Below are positions 6,868 to 53,160 of a stretch of DNA of 64,000 bases, one piece after another. How positions within the stretch are numbered: position 1 is the stretch's first letter; every line of letters starts with the position of its first letter. Origin of the DNA: Oceanobacillus oncorhynchi (lineage in GTDB: Bacteria > Bacillota > Bacilli > Bacillales > Amphibacillaceae). The DNA lies in NCBI RefSeq assembly GCF_000821065.1, contig NZ_CDGG01000001.1, forward strand, positions 3,410,001-3,474,000, read 5' to 3'. The position numbers and the translations under genes were made by a program. The notes under the pieces are model-generated. The model was given only the letters and a program-made list of their open reading frames with translations, did no database searches and was not told the DNA's origin.

Positions 6868-7313
6868 CTCAACTTTCGCACCTAAGAATAAGCAAATATA
6901 TCTTGCTATTCCAGGGTGAACATGTTCTTCATTACCATACAGCATGAAAAACATGTTCTCTCGGTTCAAACTTCTGTTTGGTAAGTTGTTTTTCACGTAT
7001 AGAATACCTACTAGCGGAGGCGGACCGTTTTGACTCCTGAGGGATCAGCACCATCTGAAGATCCACTTTTGCCAAGTGCTCTTCTTGGCAAAAGTTAGCT
7101 GAAGAGCGTGCCCCTAGGCAGACTAATGTCGCAACGTTCTGGGGTTGCGATTACTCACCCCATCGAAAACATTTGTACGTCGGAAAGCAAAATGGTCCGC
7201 CGCAGTGGTGCTTTACACTTCACCTTTTATTTTTTGTCAAGGGAGTTATCGAAGGCACGATCAACCCCTGTTTCTATAGAAATGAAGTTACTTTTTAATG
7301 TGCGAAAGTTGAG
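6868..7313. mobile_element. MITE-like non-autonomous element, copy A (446 bp)
   Basis: Perfect 14-bp terminal inverted repeats CTCAACTTTCGCAC (6868-6881) and GTGCGAAAGTTGAG (7300-7313), flanked by near-identical 7-bp target duplications TAAGTAA (6861-6867) and TAAGGAA (7314-7320). No transposase is encoded. Its ends match copy B (25273-25606) in inverted orientation. It is longer than copy B because of an extra segment holding a 12-bp perfect hairpin (7065-7095). It lies between the bmrD stop and the operon terminator. Confidence 0.85.
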
Positions 7314-41857: not shown

Positions 41858-41886
41858 TTGACATATTTTTTAGAATTCGATAACAT
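41858..41886 (+). promoter_or_regulatory. SigA promoter of the SAM riboswitch transcript
   Basis: Perfect -35 TTGACA (41858-41863), 17 nt, -10 TAACAT (41881-41886). About 35 nt upstream of the aptamer. Confidence 0.75.
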
Positions 41887-41920
41887 ATGAAGAAATCTTA
41901 AAAAACTAAATAATGTAATT

Positions 41921-42029
41921 CCTTATCAAGAGCCGGGGGAGGAACTGGTCCTATAATCCCGCAGCAACCATTACTGGAAACGCAGTAAAATGGTGCTAAT
42001 TCCAGCAAGTTTTCACTTGAGAGATGAGG
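41921..42029 (+). promoter_or_regulatory. SAM-I riboswitch (S-box) aptamer
   Basis: Conserved S-box landmarks in order: TTATCAAGAG, GGAGGAACTGGTCC, CAGCAACC, ATGGTGCTAATTCCAGCAA and GAGATGAGG. P1 forms from CCTTATC (41921-41927) and GATGAGG (42023-42029). A terminator follows at 42042. S-box RNAs turn off sulfur-metabolism genes when SAM binds. The first gene downstream is the AhpD-like gene at 42424, after a repeat-laden gap. Confidence 0.95.
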
Positions 42030-42041
42030 CAGTGTGTAAAG

Positions 42042-42073
42042 AAACCCTCTTCTCCTGGAAAAGGGGTTTTTTC
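42042..42073 (+). terminator. SAM riboswitch expression-platform terminator
   Basis: AAACCCTCTT pairs with AAAGGGGTTT (one mismatch, one G-U) then a run of T, 13 nt after the aptamer's P1. Confidence 0.85.
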
Positions 42074-42288
42074 ATTTTTAAACAAGGGTAGGGAGGGAAT
42101 AATTTCAAAGGGGCAAGCATGGCTTAAAACCGAGTAATTAGATAGGTAAAGTTTAATTATTATGGTGGCTGTAAGAAAATTAACGAGATGGATTTACAAT
42201 TTGTATGATTTTATCGCAGCACAAATCAGTGGGCAAAGGAAACAGACCAGGTTCACGATGTCCTAGGACTGAAACTGGGACTGGGACT

Positions 42289-42385
42289 GCGATTACTCGT
42301 CCCATCGAAGAGCTTTTGCGATTAACCGTCCTATTATAAAGAGTTGTGCGTCGAAAAACCTTCACTAATTGAAGTTTCACTGTAT
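42289..42385 (+). repeat. Degenerate repeat bracketing the sulfur cluster, left copy
   Basis: Contains ATTACTCGTCCCATCGAA (42292-42309), identical to the loop of MITE copies B and C, and AAGTTTCACTGTAT (42372-42385). The same two words occur in the same order at 46368-46439. A local CTGGGA tandem (42275-42288) precedes it. Confidence 0.55.
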
Positions 42386-42423
42386 GACAAACCAAAATTT
42401 TAAATGTATGAGGAGAGATTTCA

Positions 42424-43086
42424 TTGACTAAAACAGATAGTTTATATCAAAAATCTTATTTTAACCGGATAACAGAATTAAAAGAATATGCACCGGAAGC
42501 GTTTCAAACTTTTTTTGCTTTTAACGATAAAGCATTAGCTGAGGGTGAATTATCAGTTAAATTAAAGGAATTAATTGCGGTAGCCGTAGCGCACATTACG
42601 GGGTGCCCGTACTGCATTGATTTACATGTGGGGAATGCTAAAAAAAATAACGCTGATAAAGAGGAAGTAACAGAGGCCATTTTTGTTGCAACAGCTCTAA
42701 AGGCTGGTTCAGCGGTTGCTCATGGTGTGAATGCGCTAAATGCGTTTGATGAAGAGGAAAAAGACGAGCTGTACAAAGCATCCTATTTTAATAGATTAAC
42801 CGAATTTGGTGACATTGATGCGGATACATTCAAGGCATTTGCTGCTTTTGATCATAAATCTATCAAAGCAGGCAAATTGACCGAAAAGGAGAAAGAGCTT
42901 ATCGCGGTGGCATCAGCACATACCACAGGCTGCCCGTATTGCATTGATCTGCATACGAAAAACGCCAAAAAAACAGGATCCAGCCTAGAGGAAATATCAG
43001 AAGCGATTTTTGTGGCAGCAGCTTTAAAAGCCGGGTCCGCAGTGGCACATAGTGTGAATGCCTTAAATGCTTTCGATGAATCTTAA
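42424..43086 (+). CDS. Tandem carboxymuconolactone decarboxylase/AhpD-like protein
   Basis: 220 residues made of two near-identical CMD/AhpD domains (~1-110 and ~118-220). Each has a GCPYCIDLH redox/acid-base motif (Cys 61, Cys 64, His 68 and Cys 170, Cys 173, His 177) and ends KAGSAVAH-x-VNALNAFDE. CXXC plus His is the AhpD peroxidase-reductant signature, so a thiol-redox role is more likely than decarboxylation (inference). TTG start with GAGGAGAG upstream. First gene after the SAM riboswitch. Confidence 0.88.
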   Translation: MTKTDSLYQKSYFNRITELKEYAPEAFQTFFAFNDKALAEGELSVKLKELIAVAVAHITGCPYCIDLHVGNAKKNNADKEEVTEAIFVATALKAGSAVAHGVNALNAFDEEEKDELYKASYFNRLTEFGDIDADTFKAFAAFDHKSIKAGKLTEKEKELIAVASAHTTGCPYCIDLHTKNAKKTGSSLEEISEAIFVAAALKAGSAVAHSVNALNAFDES

Positions 43087-43219
43087 GTAATCAGCAATTC
43101 AGAAGTAAGGGCCGATACCAAAATCAATGGCTGACTGCATCAAATGAGAGATAGTCAATTATAGATTTTGGTGAAGCGGTCAAGATGAAAATTTATGAGA
43201 AAAGGAGCTTATCGAAACG

Positions 43220-44593
43220 ATGACAAAACAAATTCACCTGAATGGATTTATTCAAAATTCACCTTCCCCTCACTCGACAGGATTATGGAAGCATGAAAAG
43301 GACGAGGGGACAAAACATAATGACCTGTCATATTGGATAGAAACAGCAAAAATCCTGGAACGCGGTAAATTTGATGCCATGTTTATTGCTGATGTGCTTG
43401 GAACCTACAGTGTATATGAAAATAGTCATGAAGCAGCTGTCCGGCATGCTGTACAGCTTCCGGCTCATGATCCATTGATTCCGATTTCTGCTATGGCGGC
43501 TGTCACTGAAAATCTCGGCTTTGCGCCAACAATTTCTGCTACATATGCACAACCATACGCACTCGCAAGGCAGCTATCTACACTGGATCATTTAACGAAT
43601 GGAAGAGTTGCCTGGAATGTGGTGACTTCTTATTTAGAAAGCGAGGCAGTCAATCTTGGCCTTTCCAGCCGTCTTCCTAAGGAACAGCGCTATGACCGTG
43701 CAGATGAATTTCTCGAAGTCGTTTATAAACTTTGGGAACACAGCTGGGATGACAATGCTGTTGTTCATGATGGCGCAAAGGATACATTTGCACAGCCGGA
43801 TAAGGTTCGTTTGATTAATCATGAAGGTGAATTTTTCAATGTACCTGGTCCGCATTTGGTTGAACCTTCTCCGCAGCGTACGCCTGTTTTATTCCAAGCA
43901 GGAGCTTCACCAAAAGGAAGAGATTTTGCAGCGAAACATGCAGAGGCGGTTTTTACTAAAAATCATTCCTTGGATGCGTTAAAGGCCTATGTTGCAGATA
44001 TTCGGAAACGAACAGAGGAACAGGGCAGAAATCGGCAAGATATATTTGTTTTTCCTATGATTTTGCCAATCATTGGGTCAACGGAAGAAGAAGCGCTGGC
44101 AAAGTATGAAGATTTAACAGACCACGTCAGCTACGAAGGAACTGCGTCTCTCCTTTCCGGACATACAGGAATCGATTTTTCAAAATATAATCCGGATCAG
44201 TATATTGAAGATATACAGACAGAAGCAGTACAGGGAAATCTGGATATGTATACAAAAGATCCTAATAAGAAATGGACACTGCGGGAAGCTGTTAAAAATC
44301 ATGGACTCGGCAATGGTACGGTGAAATTTATCGGAACACCTGAACAAATTGCAGATCGAATGGAAGAATGGGCATTTGAAGGTGACGTGGATGGTTTCAA
44401 TATCGCGCAGACCTATTCTCCGGATACATTTCGGGAATTTGTGGATTTAGTTGTTCCTGAATTGCAAAAACGCGGCATTTACCGGACTGAATATGAAGGG
44501 AAGACGCTTAGAGAAAATATGTTTGGAAATGGAACACCCCATTTACCCGATAATCATCCTGCGCGAAAGCTTGGCAGCTTTCAGCCGAGATAA
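43220..44593 (+). CDS. LLM-class flavin-dependent monooxygenase, NtaA/SnaA/DszA/DmoA family
   Basis: 457-residue FMNH2-dependent monooxygenase. The N-terminal barrel strand IHLNGFIQNSPSPHSTGLW, KFDAMFIADVLG, DHLTNGRVAWNVVTSYL and PVLFQAGASPKGRDFAAKHAEAVF are typical of the NtaA/DszA branch, which includes dimethyl-sulfide monooxygenase DmoA, dibenzothiophene-sulfone and N-acetyl-thiol-ether monooxygenases. It lacks an encoded flavin reductase nearby. Under a SAM riboswitch with a transporter, C-S bond cleavage of an imported organosulfur compound is the best inference. Confidence 0.9.
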   Translation: MTKQIHLNGFIQNSPSPHSTGLWKHEKDEGTKHNDLSYWIETAKILERGKFDAMFIADVLGTYSVYENSHEAAVRHAVQLPAHDPLIPISAMAAVTENLGFAPTISATYAQPYALARQLSTLDHLTNGRVAWNVVTSYLESEAVNLGLSSRLPKEQRYDRADEFLEVVYKLWEHSWDDNAVVHDGAKDTFAQPDKVRLINHEGEFFNVPGPHLVEPSPQRTPVLFQAGASPKGRDFAAKHAEAVFTKNHSLDALKAYVADIRKRTEEQGRNRQDIFVFPMILPIIGSTEEEALAKYEDLTDHVSYEGTASLLSGHTGIDFSKYNPDQYIEDIQTEAVQGNLDMYTKDPNKKWTLREAVKNHGLGNGTVKFIGTPEQIADRMEEWAFEGDVDGFNIAQTYSPDTFREFVDLVVPELQKRGIYRTEYEGKTLRENMFGNGTPHLPDNHPARKLGSFQPR

Positions 44594-44641
44594 CGGAGAA
44601 GTACATTTCCTGTTTTACTCGTATGTGCAAGGAGGTCAGAG

Positions 44642-46153
44642 ATGAGTACAATTATGCTTTATACATGGATCGGTTTTGCAATATTTCTAGCTGTCATGCT
44701 GATCCTTGGTTACATAAGTGCTAAAAAAACGAAAAACATCAGTGATTTCGCTACAGGCGGCGGAAGTCTGGGACCCTATGTACTGGGCCTGTCCTTTGCT
44801 GCTACTTATCTAAGTGCAGCAACTTTTCTGGGTTACCCGGGATGGACTCATGACTGGGGATTGTCTAACCTCTGGCTGTTTTTGGCGATGATCGGCGGCG
44901 GGCCAATAGGAGTGCTGATGGTAGCTAAAAAAGTAAGAAAGCTGAATACAAAACAAAAGTCCCTTTCCCTGCCGGATTGGCTTGGTGACTTCTATAATAG
45001 TGATATTTTAAGAGTGGGAACTGGGCTGATTTTACTTTTTAACATTTTTTATATAGCAGCTCAGTTTGTAGCAGGAGCAAGAATTTTTGAATACCTTTTG
45101 GGGATGTCTTATACAAGCGGATTGATATTTATCGCAGTCATTGTTGTTCTGTATGTTTATGCCGGAGGAGCATTTGCTGATATTTATACAGATGCTGTCC
45201 AAGCGGTTATGATGGCAATTGCAGGCTTAGCTATATTTATTTCCGGAATTATTATTTTCTGGGAAGGAAGTGTTACAGCAACCTTCACTGGCATTACAGA
45301 TAATCTCAGCGTGCAGAATGGGAATTTAGTAAGCGTATTTAACCCTGATTCGCTCCATTTCTATTCGTTTGGAGCAATATCTGGCGCGATTATTATTCAG
45401 TGGGCCTTTGCTTCTGCACCGCATTTATTCAATAAAGTGCTTGGCTTAAAGCATGAAAGAGACCTGGGAAAAATGATTCTAACCTATGTTATTACCGCAG
45501 CCTTTTGTTTGCTTGTTCTTTTTGGAGGATTATACAGCAGAACAGCGCTTGGGGACAATGTTGCAGCCGCTGATTTAGCATTGATGGAGTACGTAGTTTG
45601 GGCCTTTCCGGCAATCTTTGTAGCTCTTTTTGGAATCGTTATTCTTGCTGCAGCCATGTCCACGACGGACGGGATATTCGTCTCCATTTCTACGGTGTTC
45701 GCGAACGACATTTTCCTGAAATTCCTCGTGAAAAAGAAAATTATCAAGCTAAGCAGTGAGAAGGCGCAGAAAATTGCGCTGAAAATCAGCCGTCTAGCTG
45801 TTCCACTGGTAGGGTTGATCGCCTTTTTAATTGTATTGCGGCCGCCCGCATATATGGGCGATGTCATGTGGATTGGGATTTCTGGTATTGCTGCAGGAAC
45901 GATGGGACCGATATTACATGCTATCTATAGTAAGAAAAAAGCTCCAGCAAGAGCGGCAGAAATCTCGATGGCAGCAGGTCTGTTTTCCTACCTTCTTATT
46001 TACTTTACTGGTATTATCCCAAGTACCATGTCTGCAGGCGCAGCGGCTACTTTTATCGGTATAGCAACGATTACGATTCTAGCAAAAATATTGAAAAATC
46101 CTTCTTTACCACAAGAGAAGGAAACAGAAAAAAATCAGGCCCGGGCAAATTAA
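44642..46153 (+). CDS. Sodium:solute symporter (SSS family)
   Basis: 503-residue polytopic carrier of about 13 helices. SDFATGGGSLGPYVLGLSF and AATYLSAATFLGYPG carry the SSS sodium-site signature on helix 1-2, and AAAMSTTDGIFVSISTVFANDI matches the conserved helix 8 segment with sodium-ligating Ser/Thr. Most similar in build to the pantothenate/monocarboxylate branch. AAGGAGG lies upstream. It probably imports the monooxygenase substrate; identity unknown. Confidence 0.92.
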   Translation: MSTIMLYTWIGFAIFLAVMLILGYISAKKTKNISDFATGGGSLGPYVLGLSFAATYLSAATFLGYPGWTHDWGLSNLWLFLAMIGGGPIGVLMVAKKVRKLNTKQKSLSLPDWLGDFYNSDILRVGTGLILLFNIFYIAAQFVAGARIFEYLLGMSYTSGLIFIAVIVVLYVYAGGAFADIYTDAVQAVMMAIAGLAIFISGIIIFWEGSVTATFTGITDNLSVQNGNLVSVFNPDSLHFYSFGAISGAIIIQWAFASAPHLFNKVLGLKHERDLGKMILTYVITAAFCLLVLFGGLYSRTALGDNVAAADLALMEYVVWAFPAIFVALFGIVILAAAMSTTDGIFVSISTVFANDIFLKFLVKKKIIKLSSEKAQKIALKISRLAVPLVGLIAFLIVLRPPAYMGDVMWIGISGIAAGTMGPILHAIYSKKKAPARAAEISMAAGLFSYLLIYFTGIIPSTMSAGAAATFIGIATITILAKILKNPSLPQEKETEKNQARAN

Positions 46154-46170
46154 AGAGGGGGTGAGTATGG

Positions 46171-46269
46171 ATGTTTGTTAATCCGATGCTTTCCGTATGG
46201 CTTTACGGATTTATTTTTTGTCTTATTATCATCGGAATCTCCCTTTGGAAAGGCTATTTTAGAAAATAA
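46171..46269 (+). CDS. 32-residue symporter small accessory protein
   Basis: MFVNPMLSVWLYGFIFCL then IIIGISLWKGYFRK, one membrane helix with a basic C-terminus, starting 17 nt after the symporter stop with GAGGGGGTGAG 7 nt upstream. Tiny single-helix proteins downstream of SSS carriers are known in Bacilli as symporter small accessory proteins. Too short for standard gene calling. Confidence 0.75.
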   Translation: MFVNPMLSVWLYGFIFCLIIIGISLWKGYFRK

Positions 46270-46310
46270 AATAATCATAACATGCTGTTAAATGATAAAG
46301 TAATAGATTG

Positions 46311-46338
46311 ATAACCTCCTGCTTGCAGGGGGTTATTT
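46311..46338 (+). terminator. Hairpin after the symporter cluster
   Basis: ATAACCTCCT (46311-46320) pairs with AGGGGGTTAT (46327-46336), with a weak T tract (TTATTTATAT). Confidence 0.6.
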
Positions 46339-52938: not shown

Positions 52939-52965
52939 ACAGACAAATTCATTATTCATAGGTGA

Positions 52966-53137
52966 ACGGTAGAGGTGCAAAAACCATTAGTAAATATGCT
53001 GAGACAGAATAGGCTGACGATGAAGCATATGGAAAGGGGAATTTGCCGAAGTATAATAAGCCTTATTCTTATTATACTGGTACTGGTATTGAATAAATCC
53101 AGTGCTGTCATATAGGAAACTATGTGGAGGGCTATCA
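52966..53137 (+). promoter_or_regulatory. Lysine riboswitch (L-box) aptamer
   Basis: Landmarks in order: GGTAGAGGTGC, AGTAA, GGAAAGGGGAATTTGCCGAAG, CTGGTACTGGTATTGAATAAA, CAGTGCTGTCA, and GGAGGGCTATC closing P1. These fit the lysine aptamer core. It sits upstream of dapA, committed step of lysine/diaminopimelate synthesis, with a terminator between. Confidence 0.93.
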
Positions 53138-53160
53138 GCTGAGAGGACATTAAGTGTTTA

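Follow-up and report, generated by a model that had tools for sequence, protein, structure and literature searches.

In this study, we suggest that a 64,000-nucleotide stretch of Oceanobacillus oncorhynchi DNA (hereafter the window, positions 3,410,001-3,474,000 of a 4.6-Mb single-contig genome) carries an operon, under the control of S-adenosylmethionine (SAM) and methionine, by which a polar organosulfur compound is taken up and oxidatively stripped of its sulfur for use in methionine, and we put the probability of this reading at roughly three in four. The operon is formed by a SAM-I (S-box) riboswitch and four genes behind it on the + strand, which encode a tandem AhpD-like protein, a flavin mononucleotide (FMN)-dependent monooxygenase (MOX), a sodium:solute symporter of the SSS family and a hydrophobic microprotein, and a strong terminator closes the unit. 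An initial annotation, made from the window alone, had described an S-box unit with promoter, aptamer and terminator ahead of four co-directional genes and had read it as an organosulfur uptake and desulfurisation cluster. The layout was borne out by the Rfam match, the gene calls and the closing terminator, and the functional reading gained support from the recurrent presence of the S-box at MOX loci and from the sulfur-metabolism partners that recur among the annotated neighbours. The elements of the unit are as follows.

41858-41886, + strand: promoter-like site TTGACA-17-TAACAT, 33 nt upstream of the aptamer
41920-42030, + strand: SAM-I (S-box) aptamer, RF00162, full length, 80.5 bits (gathering 44.4), E 2.3e-17
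42021-42054, + strand: antiterminator, in which the P1 3' strand (42021-42029) pairs with the terminator 5' arm (42046-42054)
42039-42072, + strand: riboswitch intrinsic terminator, -11.5 kcal/mol
about 42275-42378, + strand: copy of a dispersed genomic repeat, in the leader
42424-43086, + strand: tandem AhpD-like protein, 220 aa, TTG start as called; TIGR04169, PF02627
43220-44593, + strand: NtaA/DmoA-family FMN-dependent monooxygenase (MOX), 457 aa; TIGR03860
44642-46153, + strand: SSS-family sodium:solute symporter, 503 aa; PF00474; a neighbour of MOX in relatives
46171-46269, + strand: hydrophobic microprotein, 32 aa; kept in relatives, without Pfam or NCBIfam family
46310-46337, + strand: operon terminator, -16.7 kcal/mol, z -4.37

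The suggestion is carried mainly by the conservation of the S-box with MOX, which we followed in two sets of loci. The first set comprised 40 loci (L070-L109) around MOX or AhpD matches in relatives, all of which were scanned with Rfam; wide flanks were fetched only for MOX matches of at least 49% identity. The second set comprised 80 named loci, the best 80 of 585 confirmed (29 from Bacillota and 51 from other groups), and was searched with a covariance model trained on 30 S-boxes. The initial annotation had held that its reading would fail if related clusters consistently lacked an S-box; in the first set, an S-box was found in front of the unit in 26 of 26 MOX loci (MOX is broken in one, L077), and in the second a same-strand S-box lies upstream of MOX in 21 of the 29 Bacillota loci, with intervening genes in some and with four of the 21 repeating loci of the first set. 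An S-box is also present at L085 and L087, where AhpD is kept and only 26-31 residues of MOX are left. None of the 12 AhpD loci without MOX has an adjacent S-box by the Rfam scan, the one at L094 being about 4.5 kb off. Four genus loci outside the 26 (L035 and L037-L039, with MOX of 49-51% identity) show a pair of divergent S-boxes each within flanks of 1.5 kb. Among the 51 non-Bacillota loci, a single S-box was found in the actinobacterium Kineococcus (L151:942-1041), which scores 46.9 bits by Rfam, just over the gathering threshold, and lies about 310 nt upstream of a DmoA-like gene. A whole-Rfam scan of 14 of these 51 loci and of all eight S-box-less Bacillota loci gave no other riboswitch. 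With 9 S-boxes in the 4.6 Mb of the window's genome, chance proximity across so many genomes is negligible.

We then compared the history of the oxygenase with that of the switch, using a MOX tree of 96 rows from which rows shorter than 380 aa (including the broken MOX of L077 in G009) and four duplicates were left out. The window's MOX clade contains 30 rows with a support of 90, and 29 of them have an S-box; the exception is Staphylococcus equorum, and staphylococci use other methionine switches. A second MOX cluster of 16 rows (support 92) has an S-box in 14. The S-box label changes 5 times on this tree, which was made by a quick method with several forks open, compared with a mean of 31.8 changes for shuffled labels. 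When the aptamers themselves were compared, 13 window-clade aptamers showed a mean mutual likeness of 85% versus 58% to the eight other S-boxes of the genome, and the window's own aptamer showed 76% to the window-clade aptamers versus 55% to the other S-boxes of its own genome. Because the aptamers resemble those of their own clade more than the other S-boxes of the genome, the switch and the operon were probably inherited together. For the second cluster, aptamer likeness is higher to the eight other S-boxes (64.5%) than to the aptamers of the window's clade (61.2%), which may point to an independent gain of the S-box there. Signs of decay were also seen, namely a MOX with an internal stop behind the S-box at L077 (G009:C19), an AhpD remnant at L072 and the MOX remnants at L085 and L087, and the operon seems to decay repeatedly.

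The partners of MOX, which were mostly sorted by clustering while a subset was annotated with family models, are consistent with a role in sulfur supply. A protein of the SsuE cluster occurs in nine of the 26 MOX loci, and both members tested (L070 and L106) pass the SsuE equivalog cut-off. It had been stated that the window cluster encodes no flavin reductase, which holds for the cluster itself; the genome, however, has an SsuE-type reductase in trans at 2,426,631-2,427,131 (202.5-203 bits against a cut-off of 164.05), which is 65% identical to the SsuE of L070 and has no S-box. For such sharing there is a precedent in Acinetobacter, where a single reductase serves several oxygenases, according to PMC13352529. 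At L098/L143 the order is S-box, AhpD, SsuE, MOX and an acyl-CoA-dehydrogenase-like protein that reaches only 90.3 of the 430.9 bits required for SfnB. At L104 and L106-L108 two divergent S-boxes are found, of which one serves SsuE and MOX and the second a RimK-like gene together with an SfnG-like monooxygenase; the SfnG-like assignment was made by clustering at the four loci, and the one tested (L104) scores 292.8 bits, under the cut-off of 382.95. The RimK-like gene at these loci likewise scores below cut-offs. An SfnB-like oxidoreductase (293.6 bits, cut-off 430.9) precedes MOX at L156, and at L169 an acyl-CoA-dehydrogenase-like gene precedes MOX and an NlpA lipoprotein gene follows it. In the O. 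oncorhynchi genome, the other eight S-boxes head two MetN-like genes, a methionine-biosynthesis pyridoxal-phosphate enzyme, a methionine-synthase-like gene, MetK, O-acetylhomoserine sulfhydrylase, a glycerol-dehydrogenase-like gene and a gene without a family match at the threshold used. The glycerol-dehydrogenase-like gene (S-box L002, G000:C1:418813-418929) is an unusual target.

MOX belongs to the NtaA/DmoA family of FMN monooxygenases (569.2 bits to TIGR03860, cut-off 279.7) and misses the equivalog cut-offs of SsuD (82.8 against 518.2 bits) and SfnG (90.3 against 382.95 bits). Its nearest solved structures are LadA (3b9n, 469.7 bits, 49% identity) and then DmoA (6ak1, 451.7 bits, 45% identity over 449 residues). 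The likeness to DmoA, its second-best match in the PDB, raises the alternative that MOX is a dimethyl-sulfide (DMS) monooxygenase and that the operon scavenges DMS, and the methanethiol so released would suit S-box control. However, DmoA lies outside the window's MOX clade in the tree, where its long branch is unsurely placed, and a volatile neutral substrate should not need a Na+ symporter; the DMS role would better suit loci where no symporter gene was called beside MOX, such as L082-L084, L104 and L106-L108. Judged from sequence, we consider DMS scavenging improbable for the window. A second alternative is that the substrate of MOX is an S-substituted cysteine or an amine like nitrilotriacetate (NTA) or ethylenediaminetetraacetate (EDTA), as it is for some superfamily relatives. 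YtnJ and the EDTA and NTA monooxygenases are indeed among the more distant PDB matches of MOX, but they score far under LadA and DmoA. Moreover, S-alkyl-cysteine operons carry a deacetylase, an amidase and an N-acetyltransferase, and none of these is included among the S-box-operon partners that were annotated, which makes this alternative quite improbable.

The symporter meets the SSS family model (PF00474, 144 bits against a gathering threshold of 22.8) and no substrate-specific cut-off, missing the equivalog cut-offs of PutP (146.5 against 515.5 bits) and PanF (135.2 against 328.05 bits). Symporter and microprotein of the window type occur together in nine of the 26 MOX loci. The quartet of genes named in the initial annotation was sought behind the S-boxes of relatives, and it is complete in seven of the 26. 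The microprotein is hydrophobic with one membrane span, as judged by eye, and the forms with 32-37 aa were found at L070-L075, L078, L079, L090, L132-L134, L136-L140 and L228 (L228:5069-5182). The last of these, which has 37 aa and seems homologous on inspection by eye, lies behind a sister symporter (60%) next to an amidase-like gene, for which reason we rejected the idea that the microprotein is a part of sulfur metabolism. Other lineages of SSS symporters carry small proteins of their own. At L080, L081 and L086 the SSS symporter is a different one and comes with an unrelated protein of 34-35 aa, the unrelated proteins across L080, L081, L086 and L095 having 33-35 aa, and a third SSS symporter with a 92-aa protein is present at L105 and L109. 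No NCBIfam match was obtained for the 35-, 33- and 37-aa proteins of L080, L095 and L228, respectively. These comparisons suggest that the microprotein belongs with one lineage of SSS symporters and has been previously undescribed.

The AhpD protein comprises two AhpD/CMD domains with the motif EX11CX2CX3H in each half, in agreement with the tandem CXXC protein noted earlier, and two such motifs were found in 22 of 22 AhpD proteins of relatives (four duplicates among them). We take this motif to be that of AhpD-type peroxidases. The protein meets TIGR04169 (159.1 bits, cut-off 120) and TIGR00778 (110.1 bits, cut-off 27.8), matches PF02627, and misses the ahpD subfamily cut-off of TIGR00777 (46.1 against 191.95 bits). 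The link of TIGR04169 to arsenosugars was considered and dropped, there being no arsenic genes among the annotated neighbours. AhpD adjoins MOX in 14 of the 26 MOX loci, and across the genus 12 of the 15 genomes in which MOX reaches 62% identity have AhpD of at least 76% identity under an S-box, versus 0 of the 13 without such MOX (Fisher p 1.5e-5 with relatedness ignored and with identity thresholds of our own). Three further observations bear on its place in the operon. First, AhpD is placed after the symporter in two Bhargavaea loci, and in that of B. cecembensis (L137) a second S-box stands directly before it. Second, two nearly identical loci (L139/L140) have an OsmC-like protein in the AhpD position (84.6 bits, cut-off 95). 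Third, G005 and G019 keep AhpD under an S-box beside a MOX remnant of 26-31 residues, while a MOX of 62-64% identity has its own S-box elsewhere. On the strength of the separate S-box, the OsmC-like replacement and this retention, we rejected in part the possibility that AhpD is a hitch-hiker; from its distribution it looks like a real partner of the operon.

A peroxide-removing AhpD has a rival in an AhpD that is no peroxidase and acts directly on the product, whether thiol, sulfenate or aldehyde. The CXXC in both halves would fit such a role, as would the arrangement at L095, where AhpD stands directly behind O-acetylhomoserine sulfhydrylase. On the other hand, the replacement by an OsmC-like protein, itself below the family cut-off, favours peroxide, and the 12 AhpD loci without MOX share no other cluster in more than three of them. 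We therefore regard direct handling of the product as unlikely, although it deserves more weight than the alternatives for MOX. The pair of genes at L095 (L095:3392-5529) has no S-box.

The aptamer and its expression platform are identified here, and a response to SAM is predicted from them. As single folds, the terminator (z -1.28) and the antiterminator (-9.6 kcal/mol, z -0.46) are unexceptional against shuffles. A terminator was found in 45 of 46 S-box leaders (the window, 28 loci and 17 further non-duplicate loci), an antiterminator of -8 kcal/mol or lower in 44 of 46, and a promoter-like site scoring 9/12 or better also in 44 of 46; these are raw counts at thresholds of our own, without a shuffled control. 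The leader from the aptamer to AhpD is 394 nt long in the window and 50-490 nt in 28 relatives by our own gene calls. It also holds a promoter-like site at 42180-42209 (9/12) and, in addition to what had been described before, the copy of a dispersed intergenic repeat, which has at least 44 matches genome-wide with its own copy counted (40 of 116 candidates were scored) and short matches elsewhere in the window at 7139, 16904, 25411 and 46359. Promoter-like matches are at chance level (23 versus 18.3 +/- 4.1 expected), and terminator-like matches are above it (12 versus 5.5 +/- 2.5 expected). Inside the unit, the scan gave weaker terminator-like sites on the + strand at 43605-43628 and at 46192-46209, the latter within the microprotein gene. 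The unit is flanked upstream by an mmdA-like carboxyltransferase gene and downstream by a dynamin-like gene, which both score under equivalog/subfamily cut-offs and were taken as lying outside the operon. Farther off, a lysine riboswitch is present at window 52962-53142 (124.7 bits).

Here, we need to consider several points that weigh against the proposed function. The window-type symporter is absent from most MOX loci and AhpD from 12 of the 26, which means that MOX can do without either; the OsmC-like match stays under its family cut-off, and some SfnB-like matches are weak. In eight of the 29 Bacillota loci MOX has no S-box, four relatives at 36-39% identity (L029-L032) have none within 1.5 kb, and at L156 the S-box lies 2.4 kb upstream of MOX with gaps between. 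The promoter-like site and the repeat in the leader could permit other transcription starts. Finally, Bacillus S-boxes also govern steps upstream of methionine, and S-box control thus gives no choice between the release of a thiol and that of sulfite.

With these points in mind, we propose the following mechanism for uptake and oxidative desulfurisation. At low SAM the antiterminator would form and the operon would be transcribed, presumably as one unit. The SSS symporter, for which the microprotein is a putative accessory subunit, would import with Na+ a polar, probably anionic organosulfur compound, possibly a thioether carboxylate or a sulfonate. MOX would use O2, together with reduced FMN (FMNH2) supplied by the SsuE-type reductase in trans, and oxygenate the carbon next to sulfur, which would yield an aldehyde together with a thiol (possibly methanethiol) or sulfite. 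The released sulfur would reach homocysteine and methionine through O-acetylhomoserine sulfhydrylase, which is itself S-box-headed in this genome, and the tandem AhpD may remove a peroxidic by-product or the peroxide that arises when FMNH2 oxidation is uncoupled. As for the substrate, the presence of a symporter indicates a polar compound and disfavours DMS; our guess is a thioether carboxylate that yields methanethiol, and sulfonates are also possible.

The reading of MOX as an oxygenase for alkanes or other hydrocarbons, with an incidental S-box, draws on LadA, its top PDB match. According to PMC12449030, the alkane activity of LadA was irreproducible, and dibenzothiophene sulfone, the sulfur compound tried in that work, was also negative. 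In the tree LadA is not in the window's clade but joins, with a support of 100, five Paenibacillus rows that belong to L179/L185. The S-box link recurs too regularly for an incidental association, and a hydrocarbon role for MOX appears very improbable. The closest relatives of LadA in our set (Paenibacillus L179 and L185, and the entry L131:9269-10591) sit in organosulfur/methionine clusters. The neighbours at L179 are SsuD (633.8 bits against a cut-off of 518.2), homocysteine synthase (873 against 726) and parts of ATP-binding cassette (ABC) transporters, NlpA-type ones among them, and those at L185 are SfnB (497.5 bits, cut-off 430.9) and similar transporter parts; no S-box was found at either locus. 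We also rejected an S-box for LadA itself, since none lies upstream of ladA on plasmid pLW1071 at E up to 1. The negative result with dibenzothiophene sulfone weighs against a simple reassignment of LadA to organosulfur. We tentatively suggest, at somewhat short of even odds, that the LadA/DmoA branch of group C flavin monooxygenases is in Bacillota chiefly a methionine-supply family marked by SAM riboswitches or methionine-gene neighbours, that LadA, the textbook 'long-chain alkane monooxygenase', derives from an organosulfur monooxygenase of which a copy strayed onto a plasmid, and that the window operon represents one S-box-controlled form among several, equipped with a Na+ symporter of its own, a previously undescribed microprotein and AhpD/OsmC as a dedicated guard against peroxide.

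If the proposed function is true, oxidative organosulfur scavenging, which is best studied in Proteobacteria, joins the SAM-riboswitch regulon of Bacillota, and the many 'LLM class' oxygenases with undefined substrates gain a testable function based on their regulator. It would also give a hint at the real role of the disputed LadA, name a likely flavin reductase and indicate a small symporter subunit. In the open-access literature, judged largely by titles and the start of abstracts, we found neither this combination of genes nor a SAM riboswitch before a DmoA/LadA-type monooxygenase, and no named symporter accessory protein of this kind was found in the open-access literature either.

Compared with known systems, the operon resembles SsuED, MsuED and SfnG in combining an FMNH2-dependent monooxygenase with an SsuE-type reductase for sulfur scavenging, and SsuE and SfnG-like proteins occur in the S-box loci of relatives. 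However, its MOX is neither SsuD nor SfnG, control is by a riboswitch, uptake is by an SSS rather than an ABC transporter, and the reductase is in trans. With DmoAB it shares the family TIGR03860 at 45% identity, while it differs in the symporter, the SAM riboswitch, the lack of an in-cluster reductase and the position of DmoA, whose long branch is placed unsurely, outside the window's clade. LadA of Geobacillus thermodenitrificans is of the same family (49% identity) but is a plasmid gene without an upstream riboswitch at E up to 1, and no AhpD or symporter is annotated beside ladA in the stretch read. The Bacillales S-box (SAM-I) regulon has the same aptamer, terminator and antiterminator, and the other S-boxes of the genome mostly head methionine genes, whereas the targets in the window are an oxygenase, a tandem AhpD and a Na+ symporter. 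The parts are of known kinds, and we place their combination under riboswitch control with the two-component organosulfur monooxygenase systems as a further form.

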